A program made the position numbers and the translations under genes. Of a stretch of 64,000 nt of DNA, positions 18,822 through 35,875 are shown one piece after another (position 1 is the stretch's first letter; every line of letters begins with the position of its first letter). The notes beneath the pieces are model-generated. The model did not search any database. It had not been told where the DNA came from and was given only the letters and a program-made list of their open reading frames with translations. The DNA is from Paludibaculum fermentans (GTDB lineage Bacteria; Acidobacteriota; Terriglobia; Bryobacterales; Bryobacteraceae): the NCBI RefSeq assembly GCF_015277775.1, contig NZ_CP063849.1:1984001-2048000 (forward strand), given 5' to 3'.

Positions 18822-18938
18822 TAGACGTCCGATAGTCGACCGAAGTTGCGAAGGACTGCTGGCATTCCTCTCTCCGGGGGTAGGATCATCCTGAATTAGG
18901 GGCAGTCCTTCGAAATGGCCTTTCATTTGGCTTTGCGG

Positions 18939-18967
18939 TTGACTTCATGACCGGGCGCAGTTAGTTT
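18939..18967 (+). promoter_or_regulatory. Promoter of the first giant repeat gene
   Basis: TTGACT (18939-18944), exactly 17 bases, then TAGTTT (18962-18967). Six bases later comes AGAGGT (18974-18979) and, four bases on, the TTG start at 18984. The second giant gene repeats the same spacing. Transcription would begin almost at the ribosome site, giving a leader of about ten bases. Confidence 0.65.
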
Positions 18968-18983
18968 TACTGGAGAGGTGGTC

Positions 18984-21900
18984 TTGCGGTCGAATTCCCG
19001 TCTTTTCCCTGCCCTGGCATTCGTCTTTTTTTCCTGTGCACATTCATTTGCGGCGAGCCAGCCCGGCATTGCCGCCGGCAATGGCGCGAATCCTGACCTT
19101 TCGATAAACATGGTGCACACCACCAGCTTTCTGCAGGGTCAGATCAATGCTGTTTACCTCATTCATGTGGAAAACGCGGGCACCGCGCCCACGGCCGGCA
19201 CCATCACCGTGGTCGATTCCATGCCTTCCGGCATCACCATTCTGTCGATGTCGGGGCCAGGCTGGACTTGCGCGGCAAACACCTGCACCCGAAGCGATAG
19301 CTTTCCCGCCGGTCAGATGCTGCCCACCATCAGTGTTTTCGCCAGCGTGGCAAACAACGCACCACCCTCTGTCAGCAATATAGTCACGGTTTTCGGCGGT
19401 GGTGACACGAACATCGCAAACAACATTGCCAACGATGTGGCAACGATCGCCGCCAACGGCTGGGTGCTGGGTTGGGGCTATGAGGTTAGCCCGGGGAATC
19501 ATATCCCGGCAGGCCTGAACGATGCTGTCGCAGTATTCCCAGGGCCAAACCACGCCATTGCACTTCGCAAGAATGGCACGGTGGTGGTTTGGAATTACGC
19601 CAGCGTCGACACCCCGGCGGCGGTCCGGGCTCTCTCCGGAGTGGTCGCCGTGGCGGCAGGCAACCTCACCGGCTACGCGCTGAGAAGCGATGGGACGGTT
19701 TATGCCTGGGATCTATACACCGGAACTCCGGTGAGCAACACTGTGTCGAACGTCGTGGCCCTCGCGGCAGCCGACCAGATTTGTCATGCCCTGAATGCGG
19801 ACGGAACCTTCAGTACCATCGGCCCTCTCTTCTGGGCGTCCGATTGGTACCCACCGGCCGGCACCGCGAATGTCGTACAGATCTCCGCCCGCCAGAGGTC
19901 GTTTGTAGGATTGACCTGGGATGGCAAGGTGGTGAGTTGGGGCGCCTCTGCACCGCCGACGCCCGCTGGACTGGGGCCGCTGGCTCGGGTGGAGGCCCTT
20001 GGGGGCTATACGGCCGCTGGCATCCGGCAGGACGGAACCGTGGTCGCCTGGGACAACGGAAGCGGCGAACCCGGCGCCACCGTCCCTTCCGGCTTGAATA
20101 ACGTGGTGTCGCTGGCCGGAGAAGCTTACGCGATGGCCCTCAAGGCGGACGGGACCATCCAGGCGTGGGGTGTGTCCGGTGAGAACCAGGTCGAATTCGC
20201 AGCCAGGGTTTCCCAGGCTCGGGCCCTCGTAGGCAACGGCTCCTATGCCATGGCGATCCTCTCAGCTCCACCCGTCAATGTCACGGTACAGGCACGGGCT
20301 GCCGGCGTGGATCTCGCCAGCCCCCTTTACGGACAGCCGCAGCTCATTTTTGACGGCATCCAGTTTGGCACCTCGCGCACCTTCCAGGTCGCGCCAGGGA
20401 GTTCGCACGACATTGCATTCCTCCCCCCTGACCCCGCCAGCAGCATCACTACGCGGTTCTACTTCAAGAACTGGAGCGATGGCGGTGCGATTGCGCGCAC
20501 TGTGTCCGCAGCGGCCGACACAACATTCACAGTCAATCTCGGCACGCAGTTCAGGCTCGACACCTCGGCTTCAGCCGGCGGGGCGATCAGCCCGGCCACG
20601 TCATTCCATGAAGCCGGCAGCTCGGTCCTGATTAAAGCAACACCCCAGGCGGGCTATGTTTTCTCCTATTTCAGTTGGCCGAACACTATCGAGACCAACA
20701 ACCCCACGCGGATGACCATGACGGCGCCGATCAGCATGACGGCGAACTTCGAAAAGCCCGCCGGCCCGGTAGCCCGCCTCAGCCTGGAGCAGGTGCACAA
20801 ACCGGTGCAAGGCCAGCAGAACGCAGTCTATGTCGCCCGGGTATCGAACGTAGGCGTGGCTGACTTGAGTGGCTTCAATCTGTATTTCCAGGGCATTACG
20901 GTGGTAGGGACCATCGGCACGGGCTGGACCTGTTCCGGCAAGGCATGCAGCCGCACCGATTCGTTGCCGGCGGGGCAGAGCTTTCCGGCCATCCTCGTGG
21001 TCGCCGCCATCGACAAGACGGCAACCGGGAAATTTACGGCGACGGTAAACGGATTCGACGAGGCTAATTTGCGGGCTATCACCGCCTCAGCGTCCTCGAG
21101 CATCTCCGGAGCAGGTAATGCGGTGGTGGGATGGGGGGACAATTCATCCGGACAAGCCGGACCGCCGTCCGGGGTGTCCAACCTCGTCGACGTCTCGGCT
21201 GGCTTCAAACACAGCCTGGCGCTGAAGGGGGACGGCACGGTCGCCGCCTGGGGCGACAACTCGAAATTGCAGACCAGCGTGCCGCCCGGTGTCTCCAGCA
21301 TCATTGCCATCGCCGCCGGAGGGAACCATAACCTGGCGCTGAACGGCGGGGGTGGGGTGATCACCTGGGGTGACAACACGAGCGGACAGACCTCCGTGCC
21401 GGCCGGCCTCTCCAATGTCATCGCCATCGCCGCCGGCGCCAATCACAGCCTCGCCCTGACCAGCCAGGGCACAGTCATCGCCTGGGGCGCCAACGGCAGC
21501 GGGCAAGCGTCTGTCCCTTCCAGCGTCATTGACGCAGTCTCCATTGCAGCCGGGGGAGACCACTCGCTGGCCGTACTCAGAAACGGAACCGTGGTCGCCT
21601 GGGGCAGCAACGCCGCCGGAGAAAGCACCGTACCAGCCGGCTTGAATAGTGTGAAATCCGTCTCGGCCGGCGCCGAGTTCAGCCTGGCGCTGAAAGACGA
21701 TGGGACGCTGGCCGCCTGGGGCACCAGCCCCGCGTCGATCCAGACCGGGATTCCAGCCGATCTCGCCGCGGTCCGCGTTCTCGCCGCCGGCGCGTCGCAC
21801 GTCCTCGCCCAGCAATGGGATGAGACGCTGCGCGCGTGGGGCGACAACGCCCACGGCCAGACCGTCCTGCCCGCCGGACTCACCCTCGTCGACGCTATCG

Positions 21901-23294
21901 CCGCCGGCAGCGCGCACAGCCTCGCCATCGCCTCGGCGCCGCCCCTCGTTGACATCACATTCGCAACCCAGCCACAAGGCGCTGTTTATGTGGTCGACGG
22001 CGTCAGCTACTCCTCTCCACAGAAGTTCCAGTGGCCGGCGGGCAGCAGCCATTCCGTGGCCGCCTCATCACCCCAGTCGGCGGCGCCCGGTACGCAGTAT
22101 GTCCTCCAGTCATGGTCTGACGGCTTTGCCGGCACCTCCCGGACCCTCGTGGTGGGCGCACCGCAGGACTTCGGCCTCTATTTCAAGACAAGGTACCTGC
22201 TGACGACTTCCGCCACAGCCGGCGGCAGCATCATCCCCTCCACCGGCTACCTTGACGCAAGCAGCCCCATGGCGGTCATTGCGGTCCCGGATCCTGGATT
22301 TGTCTTCAGCGGTTTCAGCCTCGATCTGACCGGTTCGGCGAATCCCCAGTCGCTCACCATGTCAAAGCCCGCTACCGTCACCGCCCGGTTCACCGCCGTC
22401 AGTCCGCAGCCCCCATCCGTCGATCTGTCGCCCACCACGGGTTCCGGAGCCTCCGCCTCGCTCACGGCAACCTATCTGGCCCCGCTCGGGTACCAGAACC
22501 TCTCCTGGGTCCAGTTGCTGCTGGCCGCCGCACCCGACGGCGGAGGCCAGCCCTACTGCTTCATCCACTTCGATGTCCAGGGTGATGCGTTCTGGGTCTA
22601 CGGCGACGGCGGTTTCTTCGTCGGACCCGTCGCCCGCGCCGCCACCAGCGCCCAGTTGCAGAACTCGCTCTGCGCGCTCAATACGAAGACATCCACTGTC
22701 ACCGGCAATGGCGTCGCGCTCACCCTGAAGGCCGATGTCGTGTTCAAATCAGCCGCCGCCAGAAACATCTACCTGCGCGCGTACACCCAGGGCGATCTCG
22801 ACACAGGCTGGGTCCTGAAAGGCACGTGGACTTCCGCGGCCATCCCCCTGGGTTCGAAGAGTGTCCTGCCCGCTTCCGGCTCCGCCGCCCAGCCGAGCTT
22901 CGCGGCCTCGTTCACAGATCCGGCTGGGTTTGAAGGGACCACCGCCGGGTGGTCACAGTTCCGGGTGGCCGCCGCTACCGATGGAGGCGGGCAACCCTTC
23001 TGCTTCGTCCACTACGACCGGGCGGGCAACGGGTTGTGGATGTACTCCAGCGATGTCGGGTTCTTCCTGGGACCGGTCAGCCCGGGCGCAGCCTCCACAC
23101 TCCTCGACAGCAGCGCCTGCGCCGTGAAAACCTCCTCCACAGCCACCGCCCAACAGTCGGGCGCCTTGCAGGTAATCATCTCCCTCACCCTCAAGGCCCC
23201 CATGGCGGGACCAAAGAACCTCTACCAGCGCAGCCTCGATCCCTTGGGACGCGATTCCGGCTGGATCAAAACCGGTACATGGACCATCCCGTAA
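18984..23294 (+). CDS. Giant secreted DUF11/RCC1/InlB-repeat protein A
   Basis: About 1436 residues. TTG 18984 is chosen over GTG 18978 because AGAGGT-4 bases-TTG is repeated exactly before the second paralogue. Order: signal peptide (1-24), DUF11-like domain with the motif SFLQGQINAVYLI (about 37-155), a worn RCC1-type propeller (155-430), InlB-like beta-repeats with NWSDGG (430-595), a second DUF11-like domain (595-710), a regular seven-blade RCC1 propeller (713-985), more InlB-like repeats (990-1140), and two copies of a ~140-residue C-terminal domain (1143-1436). No LPXTG, PEP-CTERM or type IX sorting tail is seen. First of three tandem paralogues. Likely a surface or extracellular binding protein; ligand unknown. 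Confidence 0.85.
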   Translation: MRSNSRLFPALAFVFFSCAHSFAASQPGIAAGNGANPDLSINMVHTTSFLQGQINAVYLIHVENAGTAPTAGTITVVDSMPSGITILSMSGPGWTCAANTCTRSDSFPAGQMLPTISVFASVANNAPPSVSNIVTVFGGGDTNIANNIANDVATIAANGWVLGWGYEVSPGNHIPAGLNDAVAVFPGPNHAIALRKNGTVVVWNYASVDTPAAVRALSGVVAVAAGNLTGYALRSDGTVYAWDLYTGTPVSNTVSNVVALAAADQICHALNADGTFSTIGPLFWASDWYPPAGTANVVQISARQRSFVGLTWDGKVVSWGASAPPTPAGLGPLARVEALGGYTAAGIRQDGTVVAWDNGSGEPGATVPSGLNNVVSLAGEAYAMALKADGTIQAWGVSGENQVEFAARVSQARALVGNGSYAMAILSAPPVNVTVQARAAGVDLASPLYGQPQLIFDGIQFGTSRTFQVAPGSSHDIAFLPPDPASSITTRFYFKNWSDGGAIARTVSAAADTTFTVNLGTQFRLDTSASAGGAISPATSFHEAGSSVLIKATPQAGYVFSYFSWPNTIETNNPTRMTMTAPISMTANFEKPAGPVARLSLEQVHKPVQGQQNAVYVARVSNVGVADLSGFNLYFQGITVVGTIGTGWTCSGKACSRTDSLPAGQSFPAILVVAAIDKTATGKFTATVNGFDEANLRAITASASSSISGAGNAVVGWGDNSSGQAGPPSGVSNLVDVSAGFKHSLALKGDGTVAAWGDNSKLQTSVPPGVSSIIAIAAGGNHNLALNGGGGVITWGDNTSGQTSVPAGLSNVIAIAAGANHSLALTSQGTVIAWGANGSGQASVPSSVIDAVSIAAGGDHSLAVLRNGTVVAWGSNAAGESTVPAGLNSVKSVSAGAEFSLALKDDGTLAAWGTSPASIQTGIPADLAAVRVLAAGASHVLAQQWDETLRAWGDNAHGQTVLPAGLTLVDAIAAGSAHSLAIASAPPLVDITFATQPQGAVYVVDGVSYSSPQKFQWPAGSSHSVAASSPQSAAPGTQYVLQSWSDGFAGTSRTLVVGAPQDFGLYFKTRYLLTTSATAGGSIIPSTGYLDASSPMAVIAVPDPGFVFSGFSLDLTGSANPQSLTMSKPATVTARFTAVSPQPPSVDLSPTTGSGASASLTATYLAPLGYQNLSWVQLLLAAAPDGGGQPYCFIHFDVQGDAFWVYGDGGFFVGPVARAATSAQLQNSLCALNTKTSTVTGNGVALTLKADVVFKSAAARNIYLRAYTQGDLDTGWVLKGTWTSAAIPLGSKSVLPASGSAAQPSFAASFTDPAGFEGTTAGWSQFRVAAATDGGGQPFCFVHYDRAGNGLWMYSSDVGFFLGPVSPGAASTLLDSSACAVKTSSTATAQQSGALQVIISLTLKAPMAGPKNLYQRSLDPLGRDSGWIKTGTWTIP
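21121..21938 (+). repeat. Seven tandem RCC1 blades in giant protein A
   Basis: Seven successive units of roughly 35-40 codons, each with a core like VVAWGDNxxGQxxVPxG and then IAAGxxHSLAL. Seven blades would close one complete RCC1 beta-propeller. The repeat exists at protein level; the DNA copies are diverged. Confidence 0.85.
22410..23291 (+). repeat. Twin C-terminal domain, giant protein A
   Basis: Two tandem ~140-residue units. Each has WxQ, DGGGQPxCFxHxD, GFFxGP, a second Cys in SxxCAxxT and a closing GTW. The last five residues, GTWTIP minus one, match those of both paralogues. The two conserved cysteines per unit suggest one disulfide each. I do not recognise the domain. Confidence 0.8.
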
Positions 23295-23604
23295 AACCAC
23301 AAATCCGCGCACCCGGTCCAAATGGCCCTTCGTACCCGCTACAAACAAATTCTAATAATGTAGTACGCTCCCGGCCCGCGAGCCCCATGAGATTGAACGG
23401 CAATACCGCTATTTATCTGTAAGCAACCTTACGTTTCTCACGGCGTTTCCACGCCCGCCGGGCCCGGCAATAGCCTCTTCCGCGCCGTTTTTGCAAATAC
23501 TGTCCGCGCCCGATATGCGCACGCTTACGTGTCAAAGTTGTACAGATTCGGCGTATCGGTTGACTTAGTCCGATTACGCATGTAGGTTTATTCCAGAGGT
23601 AGCC
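23295..23604 (+). other. 310-base gap between giant genes A and B
   Basis: No credible open frame or RNA gene is seen. The first part is comparatively A/T-rich for this genome (around 23335-23420). The last 45 bases hold the promoter and ribosome site of giant gene B. No hairpin with a T-run was found after gene A, so readthrough into gene B is possible. Confidence 0.6.
23560..23588 (+). promoter_or_regulatory. Promoter of the second giant repeat gene
   Basis: TTGACT (23560-23565), 17 bases, TAGGTT (23583-23588), then six bases to AGAGGT (23595-23600) and four to TTG 23605. Spacing is identical at every step to the promoter of gene A, and the flanks also match in part (CGGTTGACTT, CGCA in the spacer, TTTA before the ribosome site, CTTGCG across the start). 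Confidence 0.65.
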
Positions 23605-26600
23605 TTGCGCTTCAATTTCGGTCAATTTTCCAGCCTGGCACTTTGCCTTTTTTCGATCGGACATTTCCTAGCTTCGGGTCAAACTCAGGACCCCCGCGCG
23701 GCCGCCGCCACGCACGACGTCCTGGCCGCCGGCTCGCCCGGCCCGGATCTCTCCGTCAACCTGACCCATACCAGCGCGTTTCTGCAGGGCCAGACTAACG
23801 CGGTCTACCTCATCCGCGTCACCAACGAAGGCGGGACCGCCACCACCGGCACCATCTCCGTCGTCGACATGATGCCCTCCGGCATCACCATCACGTCGAT
23901 GTCCGGACCCGGGTGGTCGTGTCTCTCGAACACCTGCAACCGGAACGACTCCGTACAGCCGGGCCAGATGCTGCCCACGATCACGGTGCTGGCCAGCGTG
24001 GCGGCCAACGCGCCCCCGTCGGTCAGCAACATGGTGACTGTCTCCGGCGGCGGGGATCCGATTATTACGAACAACATCGCCAATGACGTCACGACCATTG
24101 CCGCCGAAGGCCGCCTGCTGAGCTTTGGGTACTACTACTCACCCTCCTCCGGGACGCCCAAGGACCTCTCCGACGTGGTGGCCGTCTCCGCCGGTTCTGA
24201 CCGGGCGCTGGCCTTGAGGAAGAACGGCACCGTCGTGGAATGGGCCAACAGCGGCCTCCTGAGTTCCCCCGTGGCTCAGGGTTTGACGAACGTGGTGGCG
24301 GTTTCGAGTGGCTACTACTACAGCTTTGCGCTCTTGAGCGACGGCACTGTCGTCGCCTGGGGCTACGGTTCCACCGCACCGCCGGCGACAGGATGGTCGA
24401 ATATTGTCGCCCTCGCAACTGCCGACGCTTTCTGCCTGGCTCTGCGCGCCGATGGCACGGTGAGCGGCGTCGGGACCGACAACAACGGAGAGTTGTCGAT
24501 TCCCTCAAATCTCTCCAATGTAATCCAGGTTTCCGCCAACAGCGGAATGGTGCTCGCCCTGCAGTCGAACGGGGCGGTCATCCCCTGGGGCATCTACGCG
24601 CCGCAAACTCCGGCCGGACTGGAACCCCTCACCCGAATCGCGGCCCTCAGTTCGGTCACCGCGGCCGGCATCAAGGCTGATGGCACCGTCACAGTTTGGA
24701 GCAACAACCCGAATCAGCTCACCACCATCCCTTCCGGGGTCAACAATATCGTAGACATTACGGGCAAGCAGCTCGTCATGGCCGTGAGGAACGACGGCAC
24801 CGTGAAGGCGTGGGGCAATACCGGCTACGGACTCACGGAGTTTGCCGCGAACCTCGCACATACCAGGACAATCAGCGCCTCCTTTTATTACGGACTCGCC
24901 ATCCTCGACAAGGCGCCCGTCCTGCTCAAAATCCAGACTGCCGCAAAAGGCCTCGATCTCACCAGCTACTACTACTATTCGGGTCCACTCGTCACTTTGG
25001 ACGGCGCAGCCCTCACGATGCCTTACTCAGCACTGGTAGCGCCCGACAGTACGCACACCATTGCCACCGCGGTCACGCAAACACCTAGCGGTGGGGGTAT
25101 CCAGTTCCTCTTTGCCAATTGGAGCGACGGCGGCGCGGCTTCCCACACCGTTACGGTCCCGGCCGACACCTCGTACACCGCTAACTACACGGTCAAGTTC
25201 CAGCTGTCGACCTCAGCCGGCACGGGCGGAACCATCAGCCCCGCGCCCGCTTCCACATTCTACGACCCCGGCACCACGATCCTGGTTCGGGCTACGCCGT
25301 CGGCCGGGTATGTCTTCTCTGGCTTCTATCTCAGTTCAGCCGGAACAGAGCAGAACAACCCAACCCGGGTGGAGATGAGCGCGCCTGTCAGCATCACGGC
25401 CAATTTCCTTGCGCTAAAGGACGCCGGCCTGCGGATTTCCCTGAAACCCATGCGCCAACTGGTTCAGGGGCAGCAGAATGCCGTCTACATCGGCCGCCTC
25501 TTCAATGACGGCCCAAATACCATTTCTGGACCCCAGGTCCAGTTCTCCGGGCTCACCGTCGTCAGGATGTCCGGCACGGGATGGGCGTGCGCCAACGCCA
25601 CCTGCTCCCGGACTGACTCGCTCGCTCCAGGCAAAGCCTACCCGGCAATCCTGATCATCGCCGCGGCAGACTCCACTGCCACCGGGACAGTGACGCCAAG
25701 CCTCGCTCTCAACACATACCCCTACAACAGCGCGGCCCGAGCCCCGTCCAAAGTCTACGGGGCCGGCAATGCCGCCATCGGTTGGGGCAACAATGCCTCT
25801 GGACAGGCGACCGCCCCAGCCGGCCTCACGAACCTGGTCGACATAGCCGGCGGCATCAGCCACAGCGTAGCCTTGCGCGGCGACGGAACGGCAGTGGCCT
25901 GGGGCGATAACTCGAGACTGCAGACGACTGTGCCCGCCGGCCTCGTCAACCTGGTCGCCATCGCGGCCGGGGGGAATCACTCCCTGGCGCTGATGGAACT
26001 CGGCAAAGTAGTAGCTTGGGGCGATAACGCCAGCGGCCAGTCCACCGTCCCTGCCAACCTTGCGGATGTGATCGCCATCGCAGCCGGAGCCAATCACAGC
26101 CTCGCGCTCACCGGCAGCGGAACCGTCGTCGCCTGGGGCGCCAACTCCAGCGGCCAGTCCACCGTCCCCGCCACGGTGAAGTATGCCGTGGCCATCGCGG
26201 CCGGGGGCGATCATTCCCTGGCCGTCCTGCGCGACGGTACGGTCATCGCGTGGGGTAGCAATGCCGCCGGGGAAAGCACTGTGCCCTCGGGCCTGGCCAG
26301 AGTGGAATCTGTCGCCGCCGGCACTCAGTACAGCATGGCCCTGCTGGATGACGGTGCCGTCATCCCCTGGGGCAGCGTTCCACCCTCCATCGTCAGCGGC
26401 ATGCCCGCCGGCCTCACCAACGTCAGAGTCCTGGCAGCCGGGGGCGCCCATGCGGTCGCCCTCCAGTGGGATCAGACCCTGCTGTCGTGGGGCGTGAACA
26501 CCAATGGTCAAACCTCTGTACCACCCGGCCTCACCCAAATCACCGCCGTCGGCGCCGGCGGCACCCATAGCCTGGCCATCGCCGCCACACCAGCCGTCGT

Positions 26601-29600
26601 CAATGTGTCGTTCGCTACAAATCCTTCAGGTGCCACCTTCACCGTCGATGGTGCGCCCTACACCACCAACCAAAGCCTCCAATGGACCTACGGCAGTACG
26701 CACACCGTCACCGTCCCCTCCGCTCAACCCGGCCTGACGCCCGGATCTCAGTTCGTGCTCTCCAGTTGGTCAGACGGCTCTTCCCTCACCACCCGCACGT
26801 TGACGGCGACCCAGAACGCATCCTACACGCTGACGTTCAAAACACAGTACGCGCTCACCACCTCAGCCTCGGCCGGCGGCACCATCAGCCCCGCCACTGC
26901 CTACTTCGATGCCAACAGCACCGTCACCATCAGAGCAACCGCCAATCAGGGCTATGCCTTCGCGGGCTTCGGCGGCGACATCTCCGGCTTGTCGAATCCG
27001 CGCACCATTGTCCTGAGCAAACCCCTAAACGTCTCGGCCACCTTCGTCGCTCCTCAGGGTAAAGCAAAGCTCAAACTCGACCTGCGGCATACCAGCGCCT
27101 TTCTGCGCGGTCAGACCAATGCCGTCTACCTCGTTAGAATCGCCAACGATCCCACGGGCGGCTCCACCTCGGGCCAGGTACAAATGACCCCCACCGTGCC
27201 CTCCGGACTCCAGATCACCTCCATGTCCGGACCCGGCTGGACCTGCACGGCCAGCTCCTGCAGCCGCGGCGACGTGCTCAGCGGTGGACAGTCTTATCCC
27301 GCTATCACCGTCCTCGCAAAGATCGACAACCTCGCGCCGAGCAGCCTCACCTTCCAGGCCGTCATCTCCGGCGGCGGCACCTCGGGAGTAACCACCGCCA
27401 GCGATACCGCGGCGGTCAATTCCATCGCTTACCCCATTTACTGGTCCAACTATTACACCTACTACTACAACACCGATAAGCCCTTCCCCGAAGGGCTGAA
27501 TGATGCGGTCGCTGTCGCCACAGGCAACAACTTTAACGTTGCCCTCAAGAAGGACGGCACGGTCGTAGCTTGGGGCTCAAACTCGAATGGCGAATGCAAC
27601 GTGCCCGCCGGGCTGACAAACGTCGTCGCCATTGCCGCCGCAAACTACTCCACCGTGGCTCTCAAGGCCGATGGCACTGTGGTTGCCTGGGGCACCAGCC
27701 AAGTGGTCACAGGTCTACCAGCCGGCCTCAGCAATCTCGTCGGCATCGCCGACGGCAATGATTATGCCATCGGCCTCAAGGCTGATGGCACCCTCGTGAC
27801 GTGGGGACAACCGTCTTACTATCTGGATCTAACGGCCATCGCCCAGGTTCGCAACGCTGTTGCGGTGTCCGCACAATACAATGCCCTGGCCTTGACCGCC
27901 GATGGCATCCCGGTTTCGCTCAGCACCGAGTCTTCCTCCCTGCCCCCACCCTCCCTTTCGAATGTGGTCTCGGTATACGCCAACTCTGGATACGGCGCCA
28001 TCACGCAGGATGGCTCACTCACCTTGTGGGCTAATTCGAACAACTCCACCGTCCCCGCCGACTGGGTGAATCTCTCCTCCGTCGCCCTCGGCGGCAATTG
28101 CCCCCTGGCGCTAAAGCAGGATGGCACCCTCTCACAGTGGAACTGTTCCTTCTCCTACACCACCACCCAGCCGAAGGACGTCCCCAACGTGACGGCCCTG
28201 GTCGGCACCGGCGATCGCGCCATCGCCCTCACTTCGACACCCCCGCAAGCGCAACTCAGTGTCAGCGCTGGTTCCGGCAGCTTCACGGTCGATGGCACCG
28301 TCTATCAGCAGCCCCAAACCTTCACCTGGCCCTATGGCAGCGTCCACTCGATTTCCGCCTCCTCGCCAATCGATGGCGGAGCCGGCATACGATCCGTGTT
28401 CTCAAGCTGGTCCGATGGCGGAGCCATCTCTCATAGCTTCGTCGCTGCATCGGCCAACTCAATGCAGCTAACTGCCTCCTTCAAGACTCAGTACTACCTG
28501 ACGACCAAGGCCACCCAGGGTGGCACCATCAGCCCGCCCAGTGGCTGGTACGACGCCAACTACACGCTCGTCTTCGCCTCACCCGACCAGGGCTACACCT
28601 TTAAGGACTTCACCGGCGCCACAATACAGAGCGGAACACAGGGCTATCTGTACCTCAACGCCCCCACCACGGTAACGGCCAACTTCGTCTCTCAAACCAC
28701 CGGGCCGAAACTGGCCATCACCAGCACCCATACCGGCAGCTTCACCCAGGGCCAGCAAGGCGCTACTTACACCCTCACCGTCAGCAATGCCTCCGGGTCG
28801 CCAGCCACCACCGGCACCGTCTATGTCACGAATTCCCTGCCCGCCGGCCTGACAACCATCTCCATCAGCGGCAATGGCTGGAGTTGCCAGAACATGACCA
28901 CCTGCTACCGGTCCGACGCCCTCGCGGGCGGCTCCAGCTACCCGCCCCTCATCGTCACCGCGAACGTCGCCATCAACGCCACCTCCCCGCAGGTGAATCA
29001 GGCCACAGTCAGCGGCGGCAACTCGCCGCAAGCTTCCGCCACGGATTCCACGGCCATACTTACCCTGGTCAACCTCACCAGCAACCCCAGCGGGATGACC
29101 ATCGTGGCCGACGGCACCTCCTACACCACCCCGAAATCCCTCGGCTGGGCGGCCGGGTCCTCCCACACCTTGAGCGTCGGTTCACCCCAGACCTTCGGCA
29201 ACACGCGGTACTCCTACCTGAGTTGGAGCGACAGCGGAGCCCAGTCCCACAACGTCACTACCCCGAGCGCGTCCACCACCTACTCGGCCAATTTCAAGAC
29301 GCAGAACAAGCTCACACTCGCTGCCACCGCCGGCGGTAGCATCAGCGCCTCTCCGGCCTCAGCCGATGGGTGGTATGACACCTCGCAGGTCCTCCAGATC
29401 ACCGCTACGCCGGCAGGCCTCAACACGTTCTCCGGATTCTCGGGCGACCTGATCGGCACGGTAAACCCGCAGTCCATCGCAATGGTCGTCCCCCGCTCAG
29501 TGACGGCGAACTTCGCAGCCGTCAATCCGCAGCCTACGGCAGTGAGCGTCTCGCCCGCGTCGGGCTCCGGAACTTCGGCCTCGTTCACGGCCACCTACTC

Positions 29601-30417
29601 CGCCGGCCTGGGCTACCAGGATCTGTCGTGGGTACAGTTGCTCATCGCCACGGCTTCCAACGGCGGCGGCCAGCCCTATTGCTTCGTTCACTTCGACGTC
29701 CAGGGCGACTCGTTCTGGGTCTACGGTGACGGCGGCTTCTTCGTCGGACCGGTCAAACGCGGCACCACCAGTGCCCAGTTGCAGAACTCGCTGTGCGCCT
29801 TGAATACCAAGACCTCCACGGTCACCGGCAACGGCACGACCCTCACCGTGAAGGCCGACATTGTCTTTAAGGCGGCCGCCGCGAAGAACGTCTACCTGCG
29901 CGCCTATACGCAGGGCAATCTCGACACCAACTGGGTGCAGAAGGGCACCTGGACGACAGCGTCCTCCGCCCTGGGCGCAATGTCAGTCCTGCCCGCTTCC
30001 GGCACCGGCTCTCAGCAGACCTTCGCAGCCTCATTCACGGATCCCATCGGCTTTGAAGGAACCACGGCCGGGTGGTCGCAGTTCCTGGTGGCCGCGGCCA
30101 CCGATGGCGGCGGGCAACCCTTCTGCTTCGTCCACTATGACAGGGCGGGCAACGGGTTGTGGATGTACTCCGGCGATGTCGGCTTCTTCCTGGGACCGGT
30201 AAATCCGGGCACGGCGTCGAATGCGCTGACCAGCAGCGCGTGCTCGGTCGATACGTCCGCATCCACCGTTACCAATCAATCCGGCACAGTCAAGGTGAGT
30301 GTTCCGGTCACGCTGAAGGCGCCGATGTCCGGAGCCAAGAACCTCTACCAGAGGAGCCTCGATCCGCTGGGCCGCGACTCCGGTTGGAGCAAGGCCGGCA
30401 CCTGGACGATCCCGTAA
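23605..30417 (+). CDS. Giant secreted DUF11/RCC1/InlB-repeat protein B
   Basis: 2270 residues from TTG 23605 with AGAGGT four bases upstream. Order: signal peptide, DUF11-like (about 40-165), worn RCC1 propeller (165-430), InlB-like repeats (445-600), DUF11-like (605-710), regular seven-blade RCC1 propeller (720-995), InlB-like (1000-1150), third DUF11-like (1155-1265), third RCC1-type region (1270-1545), InlB-like (1548-1690), fourth DUF11-like (1695-1810), InlB-like (1810-1970), twin C-terminal domain (1976-2270). It is essentially protein A with an extra DUF11-RCC1-InlB module set inserted before the C-terminal pair. Tyr runs (YYY, YYYY) occur at module edges and are absent from A and C. 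No anchor motif is seen. Confidence 0.85.
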   Translation: MRFNFGQFSSLALCLFSIGHFLASGQTQDPRAAAATHDVLAAGSPGPDLSVNLTHTSAFLQGQTNAVYLIRVTNEGGTATTGTISVVDMMPSGITITSMSGPGWSCLSNTCNRNDSVQPGQMLPTITVLASVAANAPPSVSNMVTVSGGGDPIITNNIANDVTTIAAEGRLLSFGYYYSPSSGTPKDLSDVVAVSAGSDRALALRKNGTVVEWANSGLLSSPVAQGLTNVVAVSSGYYYSFALLSDGTVVAWGYGSTAPPATGWSNIVALATADAFCLALRADGTVSGVGTDNNGELSIPSNLSNVIQVSANSGMVLALQSNGAVIPWGIYAPQTPAGLEPLTRIAALSSVTAAGIKADGTVTVWSNNPNQLTTIPSGVNNIVDITGKQLVMAVRNDGTVKAWGNTGYGLTEFAANLAHTRTISASFYYGLAILDKAPVLLKIQTAAKGLDLTSYYYYSGPLVTLDGAALTMPYSALVAPDSTHTIATAVTQTPSGGGIQFLFANWSDGGAASHTVTVPADTSYTANYTVKFQLSTSAGTGGTISPAPASTFYDPGTTILVRATPSAGYVFSGFYLSSAGTEQNNPTRVEMSAPVSITANFLALKDAGLRISLKPMRQLVQGQQNAVYIGRLFNDGPNTISGPQVQFSGLTVVRMSGTGWACANATCSRTDSLAPGKAYPAILIIAAADSTATGTVTPSLALNTYPYNSAARAPSKVYGAGNAAIGWGNNASGQATAPAGLTNLVDIAGGISHSVALRGDGTAVAWGDNSRLQTTVPAGLVNLVAIAAGGNHSLALMELGKVVAWGDNASGQSTVPANLADVIAIAAGANHSLALTGSGTVVAWGANSSGQSTVPATVKYAVAIAAGGDHSLAVLRDGTVIAWGSNAAGESTVPSGLARVESVAAGTQYSMALLDDGAVIPWGSVPPSIVSGMPAGLTNVRVLAAGGAHAVALQWDQTLLSWGVNTNGQTSVPPGLTQITAVGAGGTHSLAIAATPAVVNVSFATNPSGATFTVDGAPYTTNQSLQWTYGSTHTVTVPSAQPGLTPGSQFVLSSWSDGSSLTTRTLTATQNASYTLTFKTQYALTTSASAGGTISPATAYFDANSTVTIRATANQGYAFAGFGGDISGLSNPRTIVLSKPLNVSATFVAPQGKAKLKLDLRHTSAFLRGQTNAVYLVRIANDPTGGSTSGQVQMTPTVPSGLQITSMSGPGWTCTASSCSRGDVLSGGQSYPAITVLAKIDNLAPSSLTFQAVISGGGTSGVTTASDTAAVNSIAYPIYWSNYYTYYYNTDKPFPEGLNDAVAVATGNNFNVALKKDGTVVAWGSNSNGECNVPAGLTNVVAIAAANYSTVALKADGTVVAWGTSQVVTGLPAGLSNLVGIADGNDYAIGLKADGTLVTWGQPSYYLDLTAIAQVRNAVAVSAQYNALALTADGIPVSLSTESSSLPPPSLSNVVSVYANSGYGAITQDGSLTLWANSNNSTVPADWVNLSSVALGGNCPLALKQDGTLSQWNCSFSYTTTQPKDVPNVTALVGTGDRAIALTSTPPQAQLSVSAGSGSFTVDGTVYQQPQTFTWPYGSVHSISASSPIDGGAGIRSVFSSWSDGGAISHSFVAASANSMQLTASFKTQYYLTTKATQGGTISPPSGWYDANYTLVFASPDQGYTFKDFTGATIQSGTQGYLYLNAPTTVTANFVSQTTGPKLAITSTHTGSFTQGQQGATYTLTVSNASGSPATTGTVYVTNSLPAGLTTISISGNGWSCQNMTTCYRSDALAGGSSYPPLIVTANVAINATSPQVNQATVSGGNSPQASATDSTAILTLVNLTSNPSGMTIVADGTSYTTPKSLGWAAGSSHTLSVGSPQTFGNTRYSYLSWSDSGAQSHNVTTPSASTTYSANFKTQNKLTLAATAGGSISASPASADGWYDTSQVLQITATPAGLNTFSGFSGDLIGTVNPQSIAMVVPRSVTANFAAVNPQPTAVSVSPASGSGTSASFTATYSAGLGYQDLSWVQLLIATASNGGGQPYCFVHFDVQGDSFWVYGDGGFFVGPVKRGTTSAQLQNSLCALNTKTSTVTGNGTTLTVKADIVFKAAAAKNVYLRAYTQGNLDTNWVQKGTWTTASSALGAMSVLPASGTGSQQTFAASFTDPIGFEGTTAGWSQFLVAAATDGGGQPFCFVHYDRAGNGLWMYSGDVGFFLGPVNPGTASNALTSSACSVDTSASTVTNQSGTVKVSVPVTLKAPMSGAKNLYQRSLDPLGRDSGWSKAGTWTIP
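25772..26583 (+). repeat. Seven tandem RCC1 blades in giant protein B
   Basis: Seven blade units in the same order as in protein A, with cores such as IGWGNNASGQ, VAWGDNASGQSTVP and IAWGSNAAGESTVP. Position-by-position likeness to A shows that the whole propeller was duplicated as a block. Confidence 0.85.
29533..30414 (+). repeat. Twin C-terminal domain, giant protein B
   Basis: Same two-unit arrangement as in protein A, ending in GTWTIP. The first unit is nearly identical to A in the stretch around QLQNSLCALNTKTSTVTGNG, closer than the N-terminal modules are to each other. Confidence 0.8.
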
Positions 30418-30423
30418 AGTTCC

Positions 30424-30472
30424 GCACGGCCGGGCTGGCTCTCCGTGCCGGCCCGGCCGTGCTGTGTTCTTT
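30424..30472 (+). terminator. Strong hairpin after giant gene B
   Basis: A perfect 12-bp G/C stem (30424-30435 with 30451-30462), extended inward by three further pairs, begins seven bases after the TAA and is followed by TGTGTTCTTT. This looks like an intrinsic terminator with a weak T-tract, so giant gene C probably has its own promoter. Confidence 0.75.
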
Positions 30473-30525
30473 GATCCGCCGGTTCCCTGCGAAATCCGCT
30501 TTCGCCTGGTTAGAAAAGGAAGTTC

Positions 30526-33213
30526 ATGATTCGCGCCAGTGTTTGTCGTGTTTTGCTGTTGGCGGCCACGCTCAGCCCGACCCTCCGCAGTGAAACTCCC
30601 GGCGTTCCCAACCTGACTGTCTCGCTCACCCACACCTCCGCCTTTCTCCGTGGTCAAACCAACGCGGTCTACCTGATCCGCGTCACGAACGTAGGCACGG
30701 CAGCCACCTCGGGACCCATTTCCGTCACCGACGCGCTGCCATCAGGCCTCACCCTCACCTCGATGACCGGTCCCGGCTGGACCTGCCTGGGCAGCACCTG
30801 CACCCGCGCCGACATCGTGCAGGCCGGCCAGATGTTGCCGACCATCACCGTCCTGGCCACTATCGGCGCCAACGCCCCAAACTCCGTCAGCAACACGGTC
30901 ACCGTCGCTGGAGGCGGCGATCAGAATGCCGCCGACAATTCGGCCACCGACCTGACGTCCATCGCCTCGGAGGGCTGGCTGCTGGCCATGGATGACGGCA
31001 CCGATTACACCTCGGGACTCTGGGTACCACACGACGTCTCCGATGCGGTGTCCGTCGCGGCATCGAAGTACGGGGGCATCGTCCTCCACAAAGACGGCAC
31101 CGTCTCGGCCTGGACGTTCAATTACCCAGGGAACCTCATCGTCCCCAGCAACCTCACCGGCATCGTTGCCGTAGGTGTCACCTACTGGAACTTCTTTGCT
31201 TTGAAGAGCGACGGCACCGTCACCGGCTGGAGCCCGTGGGCCGAAGTGCCGGATACCACCAGCCTCACGGACATCGTCGCCCTCAGCGCGGACCCCTGGA
31301 TGACGTATCCCGTCATCGCGCTCCACGCCGACGGCACTGTCACTGCGCTCGGATACGGAACCAGCCCCGAACTCACCGTGCCTTCGGGCCTCACAGGTGT
31401 CGTCCAGGTCAACACCAACTCCGGCTGCGTCGCCGCCGTCACCGCCCAGGGATCGGTCGTCACCTGGGGCAGCGGCGTTCCGCCCACCCCCGCCGGACTC
31501 GGTAGACTCACCCAGGCCGCCTGCCTTGGCGATTACAGCGTTGCCGCCATCCGACCCGACGGAACCGTGGTCGCCTGGGACAAGTACGGGACCAGCGCCG
31601 TGGCGAAAGTCCCAGCGGGCCTGGATCACGCCGTCGCGCTCACCGGAGCTTACACCTTCGCGGCCGCCGTGCGCGACGATGGCACCGTACAAGCCTGGGG
31701 CCGAATCCCAGGCGGCCTCGGCTTCAATTACTTCCCTAATGCGCCGCAGGCGCTCAGCACCCTCACCCACACTCGGTTGCTGGTGGCTACCATGGACTAC
31801 GCCGTCGCAATCCTGTCCGCGAAGCCAATCCTCCTGCACGCCACCACTTCGGCCCCGCCCCTGGCCGATACCAATGGCCACCTCGTACACGGTGCTTTCT
31901 TCATCGACGGGTACCGGCCCCACTTCGGGCCGTTCATCTCCCTGCGGGTTTCGCCCGGCAGTACCCACACCCTCTCCACTGAGGCTACCCAGGTTCCCGA
32001 TGGCGGAACCGTCCGCTTCGATTTCGACAGTTGGAGCGACAACGGCCCGGCCACCCACCAGATCACTCTCGGCGACGCCGATGCCAGCTACTCACTGGTT
32101 TGGAAGCCGTACTTCCTGCTTGAGACGATCACTAGCGTCGGGGGAACCGTCACACCGGAGACCGCATTCTGGCCGGCTGGCGCCCAGGTCCAGGTCACGG
32201 CCACGCCAGCCGCGGGCTACACCTTCACTGGATTCTCGGCCCCGCTCAGCGGAACCGCCAACCCGCAGACCATCCTTTTGTCCGGCCCCTCCTCCGTCAC
32301 CGCCTCGTTCATCGGCTCCGGACTGGCGCCACCTGTCATCGATTCCCCCGGCTATCTCGGATCCGACGCCACCGCGTATCTCAACCCCCATTTCACGCCG
32401 GGCACGCCGGACCAGCAACTCGCCTGGGTGCAGATTCTCTTCGCCGCGGCACCCGATGGGGGCGGCCGGCCCTTCTGCTTCCTCCACTATGACGTGCAAG
32501 GCAATGGCCTCTGGTTCTATGGAGACCAGGGATTCTTCGTCGGTCCCCATGCCCCCGGCGCCGTCACGGGCAATCTTCGCAATGGCCTTTGCGCGGTGAG
32601 TACAGAATCCACTGTGGCGAGCTTCTACCTCAGTACGCTCACTGTAGCCACGAATATCACCTTTAAGTCCACTGCCGCGTTGAAGGTCTACTTCCGCGCC
32701 TACACCACCGCCGGAGTCGACACGGGCTGGATTCAGCGCGGCACCTGGTCGGCCAAACTGCCCGCGCTGCCAGCGATGGCCGTCTCTCCGAACGGCCAGT
32801 CATCCGTCAGCCCTTTCTTCAGCGCACTGTACCCCGACCCGCCTGGCTTCGAAGGCGTCAATCAAGGCTGGGCCCAGTTCCTCATAGCCGCCGCCCCCGA
32901 CGGCGGAGGCCAGCCCTTCTGTTTCCTCCACTACGACAAGGCCGGCAACGGGCTCTGGATGTACTCCTCCGATGTAGGCTTCTTCCTCGGACCCGTCGCG
33001 CCGGGAACGGCTTCCACGGACCTCGACAGCAGTGCATGCTCCCTCAACACGGCCTACACCTCGATTAGCAAAGCCAGTGGGCTGTTCTACATCCACTGGC
33101 CCGTCACCTTGAAGCCCCCCATGTCCGGCCTCAAGAACATCTATCAGCGCACCCTGGACCCCACGGGCCGCGACACGGGCTGGGTCCAAACCGGCACCTG
33201 GACAATCCCATAA
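30526..33213 (+). CDS. Giant secreted DUF11/RCC1/InlB-repeat protein C
   Basis: 895 residues from ATG 30526, with AAGGA upstream. Signal peptide (1-24), DUF11-like domain with SAFLRGQTNAVYLIRVTN (about 27-145), one RCC1-type region (150-430) with blades such as VTGWSPW and VVTWGSG, InlB-like repeats with SWSDNG (440-600), then the twin C-terminal domain (601-895) ending GTWTIP. This is the shortest architecture and may be close to the founding unit of the family. Unlike A and B it uses ATG and lacks the shared TTGACT promoter block. It ends 13 bases from the convergent GH67 gene. Confidence 0.85.
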   Translation: MIRASVCRVLLLAATLSPTLRSETPGVPNLTVSLTHTSAFLRGQTNAVYLIRVTNVGTAATSGPISVTDALPSGLTLTSMTGPGWTCLGSTCTRADIVQAGQMLPTITVLATIGANAPNSVSNTVTVAGGGDQNAADNSATDLTSIASEGWLLAMDDGTDYTSGLWVPHDVSDAVSVAASKYGGIVLHKDGTVSAWTFNYPGNLIVPSNLTGIVAVGVTYWNFFALKSDGTVTGWSPWAEVPDTTSLTDIVALSADPWMTYPVIALHADGTVTALGYGTSPELTVPSGLTGVVQVNTNSGCVAAVTAQGSVVTWGSGVPPTPAGLGRLTQAACLGDYSVAAIRPDGTVVAWDKYGTSAVAKVPAGLDHAVALTGAYTFAAAVRDDGTVQAWGRIPGGLGFNYFPNAPQALSTLTHTRLLVATMDYAVAILSAKPILLHATTSAPPLADTNGHLVHGAFFIDGYRPHFGPFISLRVSPGSTHTLSTEATQVPDGGTVRFDFDSWSDNGPATHQITLGDADASYSLVWKPYFLLETITSVGGTVTPETAFWPAGAQVQVTATPAAGYTFTGFSAPLSGTANPQTILLSGPSSVTASFIGSGLAPPVIDSPGYLGSDATAYLNPHFTPGTPDQQLAWVQILFAAAPDGGGRPFCFLHYDVQGNGLWFYGDQGFFVGPHAPGAVTGNLRNGLCAVSTESTVASFYLSTLTVATNITFKSTAALKVYFRAYTTAGVDTGWIQRGTWSAKLPALPAMAVSPNGQSSVSPFFSALYPDPPGFEGVNQGWAQFLIAAAPDGGGQPFCFLHYDKAGNGLWMYSSDVGFFLGPVAPGTASTDLDSSACSLNTAYTSISKASGLFYIHWPVTLKPPMSGLKNIYQRTLDPTGRDTGWVQTGTWTIP
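32326..33210 (+). repeat. Twin C-terminal domain, giant protein C
   Basis: Two units with the same fingerprint (AAAPDGGGRPFCFLHYD and AAAPDGGGQPFCFLHYD cores, GFFVGP/GFFLGP, second Cys in NGLCA/SSACS, closing GTW). The second unit is the better conserved one across A, B and C. Confidence 0.8.
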
Positions 33214-33226
33214 CAGGCGAGTGAGT

Positions 33227-35734
33227 CTACGGCCGCTCTGGCAACACCTCGAGATAGTCGAGGGCCGCCTTCTCTCCGCCGTCCGGAGTGCCCTCCACCC
33301 GGATCACATCACCCGGTCGCAGTGCGATGCCCGTCACGCTGCGCCGGGTGGACGAAGAACTGTCGATCTTCTGTGTCGGGACCCAGTTCGACGCGGTCCA
33401 TTCATCCACAACCTGCTCTCCGACCTTCACCCGGTACCGGGCATTGCCATTGTTCTGGTCGAAGTACTGTACTCGAACCGTGTACCAGCCCGCCTTGCCT
33501 TCAAAGCGGGTCGCGGCCGAACACTCCGCCGCCTGACAGGCCACGGCTTTTCCACCCGAGCCGCCCTCCCAAGGAGTCACCGGCGTCTCCGCATAGCCCT
33601 CCAGCGTCATGGCCTCGGCCTCAATCCGGCCCGGTTGATGCCCGACCCGGCCCTTCGCATCCGCAATGCCCGACGCGCGGTGGAACCAGTTGTTCACCGC
33701 ATCGCGCCAGACCTGCGCCTGCCCGGCGTGATACTCCAACTGCGCCAGCACCTCGGCATAGCGCCGCTCGTCCACGCGCCCCTTCAAGAGCTTCCAGGAG
33801 TTCACATAGCCCTCCACCGAGACCGCGCCGTCATAGTGCAGGTCGTAGAGCGTCTGGATCACCGTCTTGCCCGAATGCAGCATGTGCGTATACGGCACGT
33901 GGTGGAAGAACAGTAGCAGTTCGTCAGGACAAGTCGCCAGTGACTCGTAGCGCTTCGCTACCGCCGGCCGGTACTGGCCTGCGTAGCCGGTGCCGGTCGC
34001 CACCGTGCGGTCCATCCCTGCGCCCTTCTCATCAGACCGGTGCCATTGGCCCCAGCCGTTGCGTTCCGATGCCTCCACCGACACGCCGTAGTGGTTGCCC
34101 ACAATATCAGTGAGGGTCTGCAGCCCGAGCGGGCCGGTGTAGTCCTCAAACACCCGCCACGACTTCAACTGCAGCGACTCGATGGTCTGCACAACCTGCG
34201 GATCATTACCGAAGGTCAGCCGCGTCCACTCGGCCGCAATCTGCTGCGACGTGAGGTCTGGATTCCAGGCCAGCCGTCCATAACCGTACAGATTCGCCTG
34301 CGACATGTGGTTGCCCAGCCAGTTGGCGTCCAGGCCCACATTGGAGACGCCTACAAACCCGCCGGTCGGGCGCTGGAAGACTTTCCCAGCCACCAGGGCC
34401 TTCACCGGAGTGCCGGCGCCGCGCGCCTGCATGTCGAAATCGAGCGCCTCTTTCCACATCGGAACCAGGAACACCAACTGGCGGGCCTGCCCGAAGTACT
34501 CCTGGGTCACCTGCAGCTCGATCGCCTGGTTGGTGTGCTCCAACGCTCCGAACAGTGGCGAGGCAGGTTCGCGCACCTGGAAATCGATGGGACCGTGCTT
34601 GATCTGGATGACGACGTTGTCGTCGAACTGGCCGTCCAGGCGGTTGAAGTTGTCGTAGGCGGCGCGAGCCCGGTCGTTCTTCAGATTGCGCCAGTCCATG
34701 TGGTGGTCGTAGACGAACCCGCGGTAGAAGAACAGTCCGCCGTGCGGCTTCAAGGCGCGGGCGATGACGTTCGCCGCGTCGGCATGGGTACGCCCGTAGG
34801 CGGAAGGTCCGATGCGCCCTTCCGAATCCGCTTTCAGCAGCAATCCAGCGAGATCGGGCACGGCCCGGTAGAGTTCGTCCGTCTTCGCCTTCCACCAGGC
34901 GGCCACGCCGGCATCCAGCGGATCGAAGGTCGCCAGGCCGCCCACTCGCTGCGGACTGCCGAAGTCAACGGACAACACCAGGCGGACACCCCACGGCCGG
35001 AACGCCTCGGCGATGCGCGCGATCTGCGGCAGGTACTCTGCAGTCAGGATTCGGGGATCGGTATTGACGTTGTTGATGGAACAGCCGTTGATGCCGAGCG
35101 AGGCAAGCAGGCGTCCGTATTCGCTGACGCGGCTCAGGTCCTCGCGCACGACGCCCTTGTCCCAGAAGATGGACCGGCCGCCGTAACCGCGTTCGATGGT
35201 GCCATCGAGGTTGTCCCAGTGGTTCACCCAACGTACTGGCGCGTAGGGCGCGGAGTGCTCGTTGAGCGCCTCCATCGCCTCGCCCAACGCGATCTTTCGC
35301 AGCAGGGCGAAAGTGCCGTAGAGCACTCCACGCTCACTGCCCCCGGCAATGGAGAGGTGCCGGGCCGTACCTGCAGTCCGAAGACTGAGCGCGTAGCCGT
35401 CCTCCGCCAGCGGATTACCGGCTGGAGTTCCTGGAACCGCCTTGCGGACAGCCGGGTCCAGGCCAAGGACAATGGCGCCTTCCGCCGGAACTGTGGAGCT
35501 GACGCGCAGGGTGACGCCGAGCATGCCCCTGATGCCGCGAATCAATTCGCGCTGGGCCGTCTGCTCGACGGGCGAGTTGCCGAGCACGACCACGACCGGC
35601 GGCAGGGTGTTCACGTAGCGGCGGGCGGCCGCGGCATCCAGCGCTGCGTACCTCAGCCAGGCATCCGCTCCGGTCTCGGCATGAAGTCCGGCCAGGGGCA
35701 CCAGGGCCCACAACCACCGCAGTTTTCCGCTCAT
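33227..35734 (-). CDS. aguA: GH67 alpha-glucuronidase with C-terminal carbohydrate-binding-like domain
   Basis: An 835-residue secreted enzyme; ATG 35734 is chosen for its GGGAGG ribosome site and the signal peptide after it (LRWLWALVPLAGLHA). GH67 enzymes release (4-O-methyl)-glucuronic acid from xylan oligosaccharides. The family's active-site motifs are present: KADSEG (about residue 304, proposed acid), GPIDFQVREP (about 384) and QEYFGQ (about 411). After the usual ~700-residue core, residues 700-835 form an extra beta-rich domain (RIEAEAM, GWYTVRVQYFDQNNG) like CBM6/35-type modules. It is an isolated gene, not in a xylanase cluster within this window. Confidence 0.9.
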   Translation of the reverse strand: MSGKLRWLWALVPLAGLHAETGADAWLRYAALDAAAARRYVNTLPPVVVVLGNSPVEQTAQRELIRGIRGMLGVTLRVSSTVPAEGAIVLGLDPAVRKAVPGTPAGNPLAEDGYALSLRTAGTARHLSIAGGSERGVLYGTFALLRKIALGEAMEALNEHSAPYAPVRWVNHWDNLDGTIERGYGGRSIFWDKGVVREDLSRVSEYGRLLASLGINGCSINNVNTDPRILTAEYLPQIARIAEAFRPWGVRLVLSVDFGSPQRVGGLATFDPLDAGVAAWWKAKTDELYRAVPDLAGLLLKADSEGRIGPSAYGRTHADAANVIARALKPHGGLFFYRGFVYDHHMDWRNLKNDRARAAYDNFNRLDGQFDDNVVIQIKHGPIDFQVREPASPLFGALEHTNQAIELQVTQEYFGQARQLVFLVPMWKEALDFDMQARGAGTPVKALVAGKVFQRPTGGFVGVSNVGLDANWLGNHMSQANLYGYGRLAWNPDLTSQQIAAEWTRLTFGNDPQVVQTIESLQLKSWRVFEDYTGPLGLQTLTDIVGNHYGVSVEASERNGWGQWHRSDEKGAGMDRTVATGTGYAGQYRPAVAKRYESLATCPDELLLFFHHVPYTHMLHSGKTVIQTLYDLHYDGAVSVEGYVNSWKLLKGRVDERRYAEVLAQLEYHAGQAQVWRDAVNNWFHRASGIADAKGRVGHQPGRIEAEAMTLEGYAETPVTPWEGGSGGKAVACQAAECSAATRFEGKAGWYTVRVQYFDQNNGNARYRVKVGEQVVDEWTASNWVPTQKIDSSSSTRRSVTGIALRPGDVIRVEGTPDGGEKAALDYLEVLPERP

Positions 35735-35875
35735 CGATCCTCCCACCAACGCCGCTAAACCGATTCAGCCGATCCTTCCAGGGCATCCGGACGGCATACC
35801 CGCCCACCGCAACCACTGCCGGCTGGCGCTCAACTGTATAGTGTTATCCCAATAAGGGCCGAAACACAATCCAAG

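Follow-up and report, generated by a model that had tools for sequence, protein, structure and literature searches.

Three adjacent repeat-protein genes of Paludibaculum fermentans carry a paired C-terminal domain present in 28 proteins of the genome

The window analysed here is a stretch of 64,000 nucleotides from the genome of Paludibaculum fermentans P105T (chromosome CP063849, according to the retrieved part of PMC8407742). Reading its open reading frames confirmed the three neighbouring same-strand genes of the first-pass annotation, with the lengths given there; we call them A, B and C (Table 1). Gene A opens with a TTG codon behind GGAGAGG, while an alternative GTG start at 18978 would yield 1438 aa. 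The start previously assigned to the array, 18939, lies 45 bases upstream of A, on a TTGACT hexamer that forms part of one of two weak promoter-like elements. A promoter regulon was considered and dropped, as the expression TTGAC-N15-19-TANNNT matched 6 of 30 frames and a consensus scan left the gap between A and B empty. The locus is flanked by a gene for a VWFA-related acidobacterial protein (17736-18926, - strand; TIGR03436, 129.8 bits), which diverges from A, and by a GH67 alpha-glucuronidase gene with all three GH67 Pfam domains (33227-35749, - strand), which converges on C.

Table 1 Features of the three-gene locus, in window positions
Feature	Position	Strand	Description and basis
TTGACT-17 nt-TAGTTT, upstream of A	18939..18967	+	weak promoter-like, by eye and regular expression
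Gene A	18984..23294	+	1436 aa: signal-like N-terminus, set1, set2, twin CTD
A DUF11, set1	19092..19439	+	local profile; PF01345
A RCC1-type region, set1	19440..20288	+	RCC1-like motifs; PF13540
A InlB-like module, set1	20289..20777	+	Pfam and local profile
A DUF11-like module, set2	20766..21095	+	local profile only
A RCC1-type region, set2 (39-aa repeats)	21096..21929	+	Pfam and module map
A InlB-like module, set2	21930..22424	+	Pfam and local profile
A twin CTD, N unit	22404..22847	+	unit comparison and profile
A twin CTD, C unit	22842..23291	+	ends at stop codon (...GTWTIP)
TTGACT-17 nt-TAGGTT, upstream of B	23560..23588	+	weak promoter-like, by eye and regular expression; not called by consensus scan
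Gene B	23605..30417	+	2270 aa: set1, set2, set3, DUF11-InlB, twin CTD
B set1 (DUF11, RCC1, InlB)	23743..25437	+	Pfam and local profile
B set2 (DUF11-like, RCC1, InlB)	25423..27072	+	Pfam and local profile
B set3 (DUF11, RCC1, InlB)	27064..28719	+	Pfam and local profile
B set4 (DUF11 and InlB without propeller)	28705..29547	+	Pfam and local profile
B twin CTD, both units	29527..30414	+	unit comparison and profile
Gene C	30526..33213	+	895 aa: set1-class DUF11-RCC1-InlB, twin CTD
C DUF11	30607..30954	+	Pfam and local profile
C degenerate RCC1-type region	30955..31845	+	Pfam and local profile
C InlB-like module	31846..32343	+	Pfam and local profile
C twin CTD	32323..33210	+	predicted structure pLDDT 93.6, two Ig-like sandwiches

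The proteins are built from four modules (DUF11, RCC1-type, InlB-like and a C-terminal twin domain), and the names of the first three, until then given by eye, were borne out in all three proteins by Pfam matches above the curated cut-offs: RCC1_2 (PF13540; 200.8, 233.7 and 29.5 bits in A, B and C, cut-off 22), Flg_new_2/InlB (PF18998; 68.1, 85.0 and 37.9 bits, cut-off 23.6) and DUF11 (PF01345; 28.8, 46.3 and 33.6 bits, cut-off 24.6). Taken singly, a lone DUF11 stretch passed Pfam in A, as did two stretches in B; the DUF11-like copies of set2 were called by local profile only. In NCBIfam, A had no match; B and C matched the DUF11-type repeat TIGR01451, above its cut-off in B only, and B gave two weak unrelated matches besides. 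The joint architecture is not spanned by any single Pfam or NCBIfam family.

Module maps built with local profiles resolved the N-terminal parts into sets of ~550 aa in the order DUF11-RCC1-InlB. On these maps A reads set1-set2-twin, B set1-set2-set3-(DUF11-InlB)-twin and C set1-twin. The earlier description of B as A plus an extra set thus holds for one full set but omits a further DUF11-InlB pair, and C is indeed the minimal form. A, B and C resemble RCC1-repeat, DUF11 and InlB B-repeat (Flg_new_2) proteins in passing the respective models; unlike those proteins, they repeat one joint order, have sets that fall into positional classes and end in an undescribed domain.

The history of the sets was read from a tree covering 12 proteins and 25 sets, the three DUF11-InlB sets having been left out as too short. 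Set1 (11 rows), set2 (9) and set3 (5) formed separate groups with 100% SH-aLRT each. C carries a set1-class set, whereas L022, a 912-aa protein beside a second B-like gene, carries a set3-class set; short forms thus arose separately, and gain or loss affected entire sets. A tree of 49 twin C-terminal domains (CTDs) grouped A and B with two further B-like proteins (96%) and placed C beside its syntenic counterpart in a metagenome-assembled genome (MAG; 95%); with the Pfam matches and module maps, this supports the common ancestor postulated for the three genes. The gene order of the window (VWA, B, C, GH67) is kept in the MAG locus (L044), but no A lies between VWA and B, implying that A is either a lineage-specific gain or was lost in the MAG. 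The VWFA-related gene there flanks B.

B and its MAG counterpart share 57-74% amino acid identity per module, with four-fold sites 38-57% identical, and across ten protein pairs module identity was 45-78% against 34-57% at four-fold sites. Because amino acid identity exceeds four-fold-site identity, the proteins are under protein-level constraint and the genes look real. Between A and B the twin is 77% and the sets 50-56% identical. Recent gene conversion of this domain between A and B was considered but is not demonstrated: four-fold identity is 55% in the CTD versus 38-40% in the sets, but reaches 57% between B and its MAG orthologue.

The three-gene array had been singled out as the unit of interest, yet it proved to be one among many dispersed loci, and in the closest MAG A is missing between these neighbours. 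Across 33 loci (L021-L053), with a few kb on each side and the 25 largest neighbour clusters considered, no conserved partner gene was specific to paralogous loci; the clusters comprised syntenic orthologues of P. fermentans and the MAG as well as general families found in 3-5 loci, identified by eye as FtsX-like permease, TonB-type receptor and oxidoreductase.

What these loci share is the C-terminal end. The last ~296 aa of A, B and C consist of two copies of a ~147-aa domain, the second half of the A twin being 40% identical to the first. Each unit keeps two nearly invariant cysteines and highly conserved HYD-x-x-GN, W-x-Y-x-x-D and GFF-x-GP strands and turns, and all but three of the 49 twin blocks (46) have [I/V/A/L]P as their last two residues. 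The structure predicted for the C twin (pLDDT 93.6) is a tandem of Ig-like sandwiches resembling antibody V domains, and no type IX secretion system (T9SS) CTD entry was among the structural matches listed for this model. No convincing sequence match was found in Pfam, NCBIfam or the PDB. The 28 twin CTDs of the genome, searched against NCBIfam at E up to 1, matched four families, each through a single member (best E 0.12); no sorting domain was among these, and there was no match to TIGR04183 or TIGR04131, which we take to be the T9SS CTD models of that collection. Among described bacterial Ig-like domains, Big_9 (PF17963) weakly matched 5 of 34 units of the wider family (best E 0.0014); it was absent from the families matched by the 28 twins at E up to 1, and the twin has its own Cys, GxW and terminal [IV]P pattern. 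The twin is a candidate new domain family, judged by the Pfam and NCBIfam copies searched. A literature search lying largely outside subscription papers yielded no description of the domain or of the joint architecture, nor did the retrieved portions of PMC8407742, PMC9143113, PMC5900883 and PMC5445135.

A tree of 128 units placed 47 of the 49 first units in a single pure clade (90% SH-aLRT) and 48 of the 51 second units in a second one (99%); L035_505 and the L100 frames did not conform. The separation of first and second halves implies that the pair predates the spread of the family, and independent origin of the halves in each protein was rejected except for the L035 type.

We next surveyed the genome with the unit profile, which gave 64 matches over 30 frames. 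A strong pair was present in 28 frames, 26 of which end exactly with it; of the other two strong-pair proteins, one closes with a third unit and the other extends 8 residues past the pair, so that a unit occupies the last residue in 27 of the 28 twin proteins. Of the two frames without a strong pair, one is a divergent protein of six units and the other a remnant of 100 aa; both also end with a unit. The remnant, a twin C unit (L024 8129-8428, - strand), adjoins an intact A-like gene and is probably a decayed paralogue; a suspected Illumina adapter in L024 was looked for and not found. The six-unit protein (~1590-1610 aa; L039 5812-10578, - strand) recurs in genus members (L067, L068, L077), and its DUF7948/SBBP part was seen in L039, the copy tested. 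One RCC1-twin gene (L031, G000 C1:5944597-5948516, - strand) apparently runs over three frames of 876, 252 and 561 aa, while the copies in its neighbourhood and in the MAG each occupy a single frame (1357-1392 aa).

The same arrangement was found in 14 loci on related contigs, 13 from MAG JAFKEE01 and one from UBA8773, where all 21 twin proteins (19 and 2, respectively) end exactly with the twin; two further frames cut by contig or locus ends were kept apart. Of 15 hand-chosen gene pairs, 13 showed higher conservation in the twin than in the cargo, some by only 1-5 points, and the other two showed the reverse. CTD subtrees largely track cargo types and synteny: whole-gene duplication accounts for much of the family.

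The domains attached to the twin are diverse. Pfam was run on 19 paralogous frames, of which 18 encode twin proteins and one the six-unit protein, as well as on A, B and C; these scans, covering 21 of the 28 twin proteins, returned RCC1, DUF11, InlB, astacin, BACON, DUF7948/SBBP/VPS10-like, NHL and TIG domains, or nothing. Conversely, a twin was present in 13 of 17 RCC1_2 genes or frame groups among the matches listed (150 of 385 candidates scored; the gene taken as split over three frames counted once, and C outside the list), and the eight DUF7948 proteins of the genome comprise five without a unit, two with a twin and one with the six-unit array. Eight proteins sampled family-wide carried DUF7948/SBBP (four), an M12 reprolysin-type peptidase, NHL, BACON with a weak reprolysin match, and nothing definite (one each).

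The twin profile matched all nine genus genomes, but matches above 300 bits were restricted to G000 and G399, apart from a single internal copy in G402; outside the genus, G535 alone exceeded 300 bits among the matches listed for the family sample. Agreement in frame lengths suggests that G399 is MAG JAFKEE01 and G535 is UBA8773. G402 has a single strong pair, internal and followed by a 466-aa tail, plus a six-unit array. Among the 150 Bryobacteraceae genomes sampled, 83 had related units (no more than 15 candidates were scored in any one genome), and in the phylum sample 14 of 396 genomes matched the twin profile and 15 of 396 the broader unit profile.

Twenty family regions taken from the best matches contained 28 frames with units. 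We set aside a frame truncated by the end of its contig (9 units) and another in which the last unit scored below 20; of the remaining 26, 19 end with a unit, two end within 3 residues of one and five continue for 128-493 residues, with 1-7 units per frame. Among the loci read, genus and family arrays mostly end with a unit, at most 1 residue from the end. In other families, 334 residues follow the last unit in L060 and L061 and 182 in L062 and L063, while L056 and L059, also from outside the family, end with a unit. The last unit is likewise not terminal in the genus loci L066 and L087, the tails of these six loci spanning 182-466 residues. Internal units were also observed in L107, L117, L121 and L123, with 159-493 residues past the last one.

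Next, we considered how these proteins might leave the cell. The first-pass annotation recognised no sorting signal in A, B and C; a crude hydropathy scan revealed a Sec-type hydrophobic N-terminus in each. Judged by eye on that scan, 23 of the 28 twin genes have a signal-like N-terminus, which is absent or doubtful in L028_1086, L031_561, L032, L034 and L037. Within a few kb of each locus, neither a dedicated exporter nor a recurring specific neighbour of twin genes was found. A locus resembling a type II secretion system (T2SS) lies at C1:6.98 Mb and includes pseudopilin-like genes, names other than GspD having been assigned by eye. Its GspD-type matches, 236.3 and 146.0 bits on two frames, each fall below the cut-off of 351.35. 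In a glycine-rich stretch, this secretin (L140 6201-8509; G000 C1:6.986-6.988 Mb) is read as two overlapping frames of 401 and 394 aa, whereas G399 has a single frame of 778 aa in its place (L141); an assembly error and a real break are both possible. Adjoining gspD is a 591-aa protein that has no twin unit; the cargo of seven twin proteins is homologous to it (37% over 485 aa and E 3e-76 in the best case), and the layout in G399 is similar. This cargo homologue makes the T2SS-like locus the best candidate export route, by association only.

Known C-terminal sorting elements offered a further comparison. Sortase (LPXTG), PEP-CTERM and GlyGly-CTERM signals consist of a C-terminal hydrophobic helix and a basic tail. 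They would be like the twin in that a shared C-terminal element sorts; the twin differs in being a folded ~296-aa domain lacking such a helix, as the mean hydropathy of 17-residue stretches within the last 45 aa peaks at 1.36 across 49 twins.

We tentatively prefer to view A, B and C as members of a lineage-specific family of secreted, adhesin-like proteins that would use Sec, perhaps leave through a T2SS-like system and carry the twin as a targeting or retention module. This role for the twin is suggested by the terminal unit in 27/28 proteins of the genome and 21/21 on related contigs, by the last unit lying within 3 residues of the end in 21/26 family frames, and by diverse cargo, twin conservation, fixed clades and the Ig-like fold. 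Such proteins, presumably mostly beta-structured, would reach the periplasm by the hydrophobic N-terminus read from their sequence, may fold there, each CTD unit having its cysteine pair, and would then cross the outer membrane, most likely by the type II-like system of the genome. The twin might hold them at the surface or in the matrix, leaving the N-terminal DUF11-RCC1-InlB sets to bind ligands or partners, and duplication with gain or loss of whole sets could vary reach and valency around a fixed C-terminus. Targeting is weakened as an explanation by the copy numbers of up to 7 in related arrays (9 in the cut frame) and the 128-493 trailing residues in 5/26 frames, unexpected in a mere signal, by the two pairs in which cargo is better conserved, by the internal units outside the family and in G402, by DUF7948 proteins and a 591-aa gspD neighbour without the unit, by the lack of a dedicated machine and by the 5/28 proteins without a clear signal. 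The earlier proposal of an export or anchoring logic of its own accordingly fares unevenly: the twin is placed genome-wide like a shared sorting or retention domain, but partner machinery was not found.

Nearly as likely, given the variable copy number in relatives, the internal copies and the same-cargo proteins that lack it, is that the twin binds a polysaccharide, mineral or matrix component in the manner of a carbohydrate-binding module, with export by Sec and T2SS alone and the C-terminal place a habit of accretion. The Ig-like fold accords with such a role and the conserved strands and turns could form a binding face; the terminal position and the order of N and C units, fixed bar the L035 type, are nevertheless tighter than expected, and the cargo has no known common ligand. 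We think it improbable that the twin is instead a structural cap spread by gene duplication, its place reflecting descent and no shared function; subtrees following cargo and synteny would fit, but several unrelated cargo kinds carry the twin and it is better conserved than its cargo in most of the chosen pairs. A comparably small chance attaches to the idea that Acidobacteriota have an undescribed route of outer-membrane export or surface anchoring, parallel but unrelated to T9SS, with the tandem Ig-like CTD as its sorting signal. This signal would serve propellers and M12-type proteases across Bryobacteraceae and of which the P. fermentans lineage would have fixed an asymmetric two-unit form with a strictly free C-terminus. 

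T9SS itself is unlikely. According to the retrieved parts of PMC5445135 and PMC9143113, the type A/B CTDs of Bacteroidota (PorZ, RgpB) are C-terminal sandwiches of the Ig superfamily on Sec-exported cargo that includes a protease and, in PorZ, two propellers (PMC5445135), an analogy that would hold for the broad fold class only, through the modelled resemblance to antibody V domains. That the twin proteins are true type IX substrates is highly improbable despite this PorZ-like combination of Sec signal, propeller cargo and C-terminal Ig-fold, as the twin comprises two ~147-aa units with a Cys pair each versus the 72 aa of the RgpB CTD (PMC5445135), its 28 members match no T9SS CTD model, and SprA_N (PF14349) was found in 0/9 genus genomes, in a search where 0/14 controls gave a match.

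In our view the twin matters more than the local three-gene array. One C-terminal domain marks 28 proteins of a single genome and has relatives in 83 of 150 sampled family genomes. Acidobacteriota are common in soil, yet descriptions of their large secreted proteins are poor, and the twin may offer a way to learn how proteins reach the surface of these bacteria.
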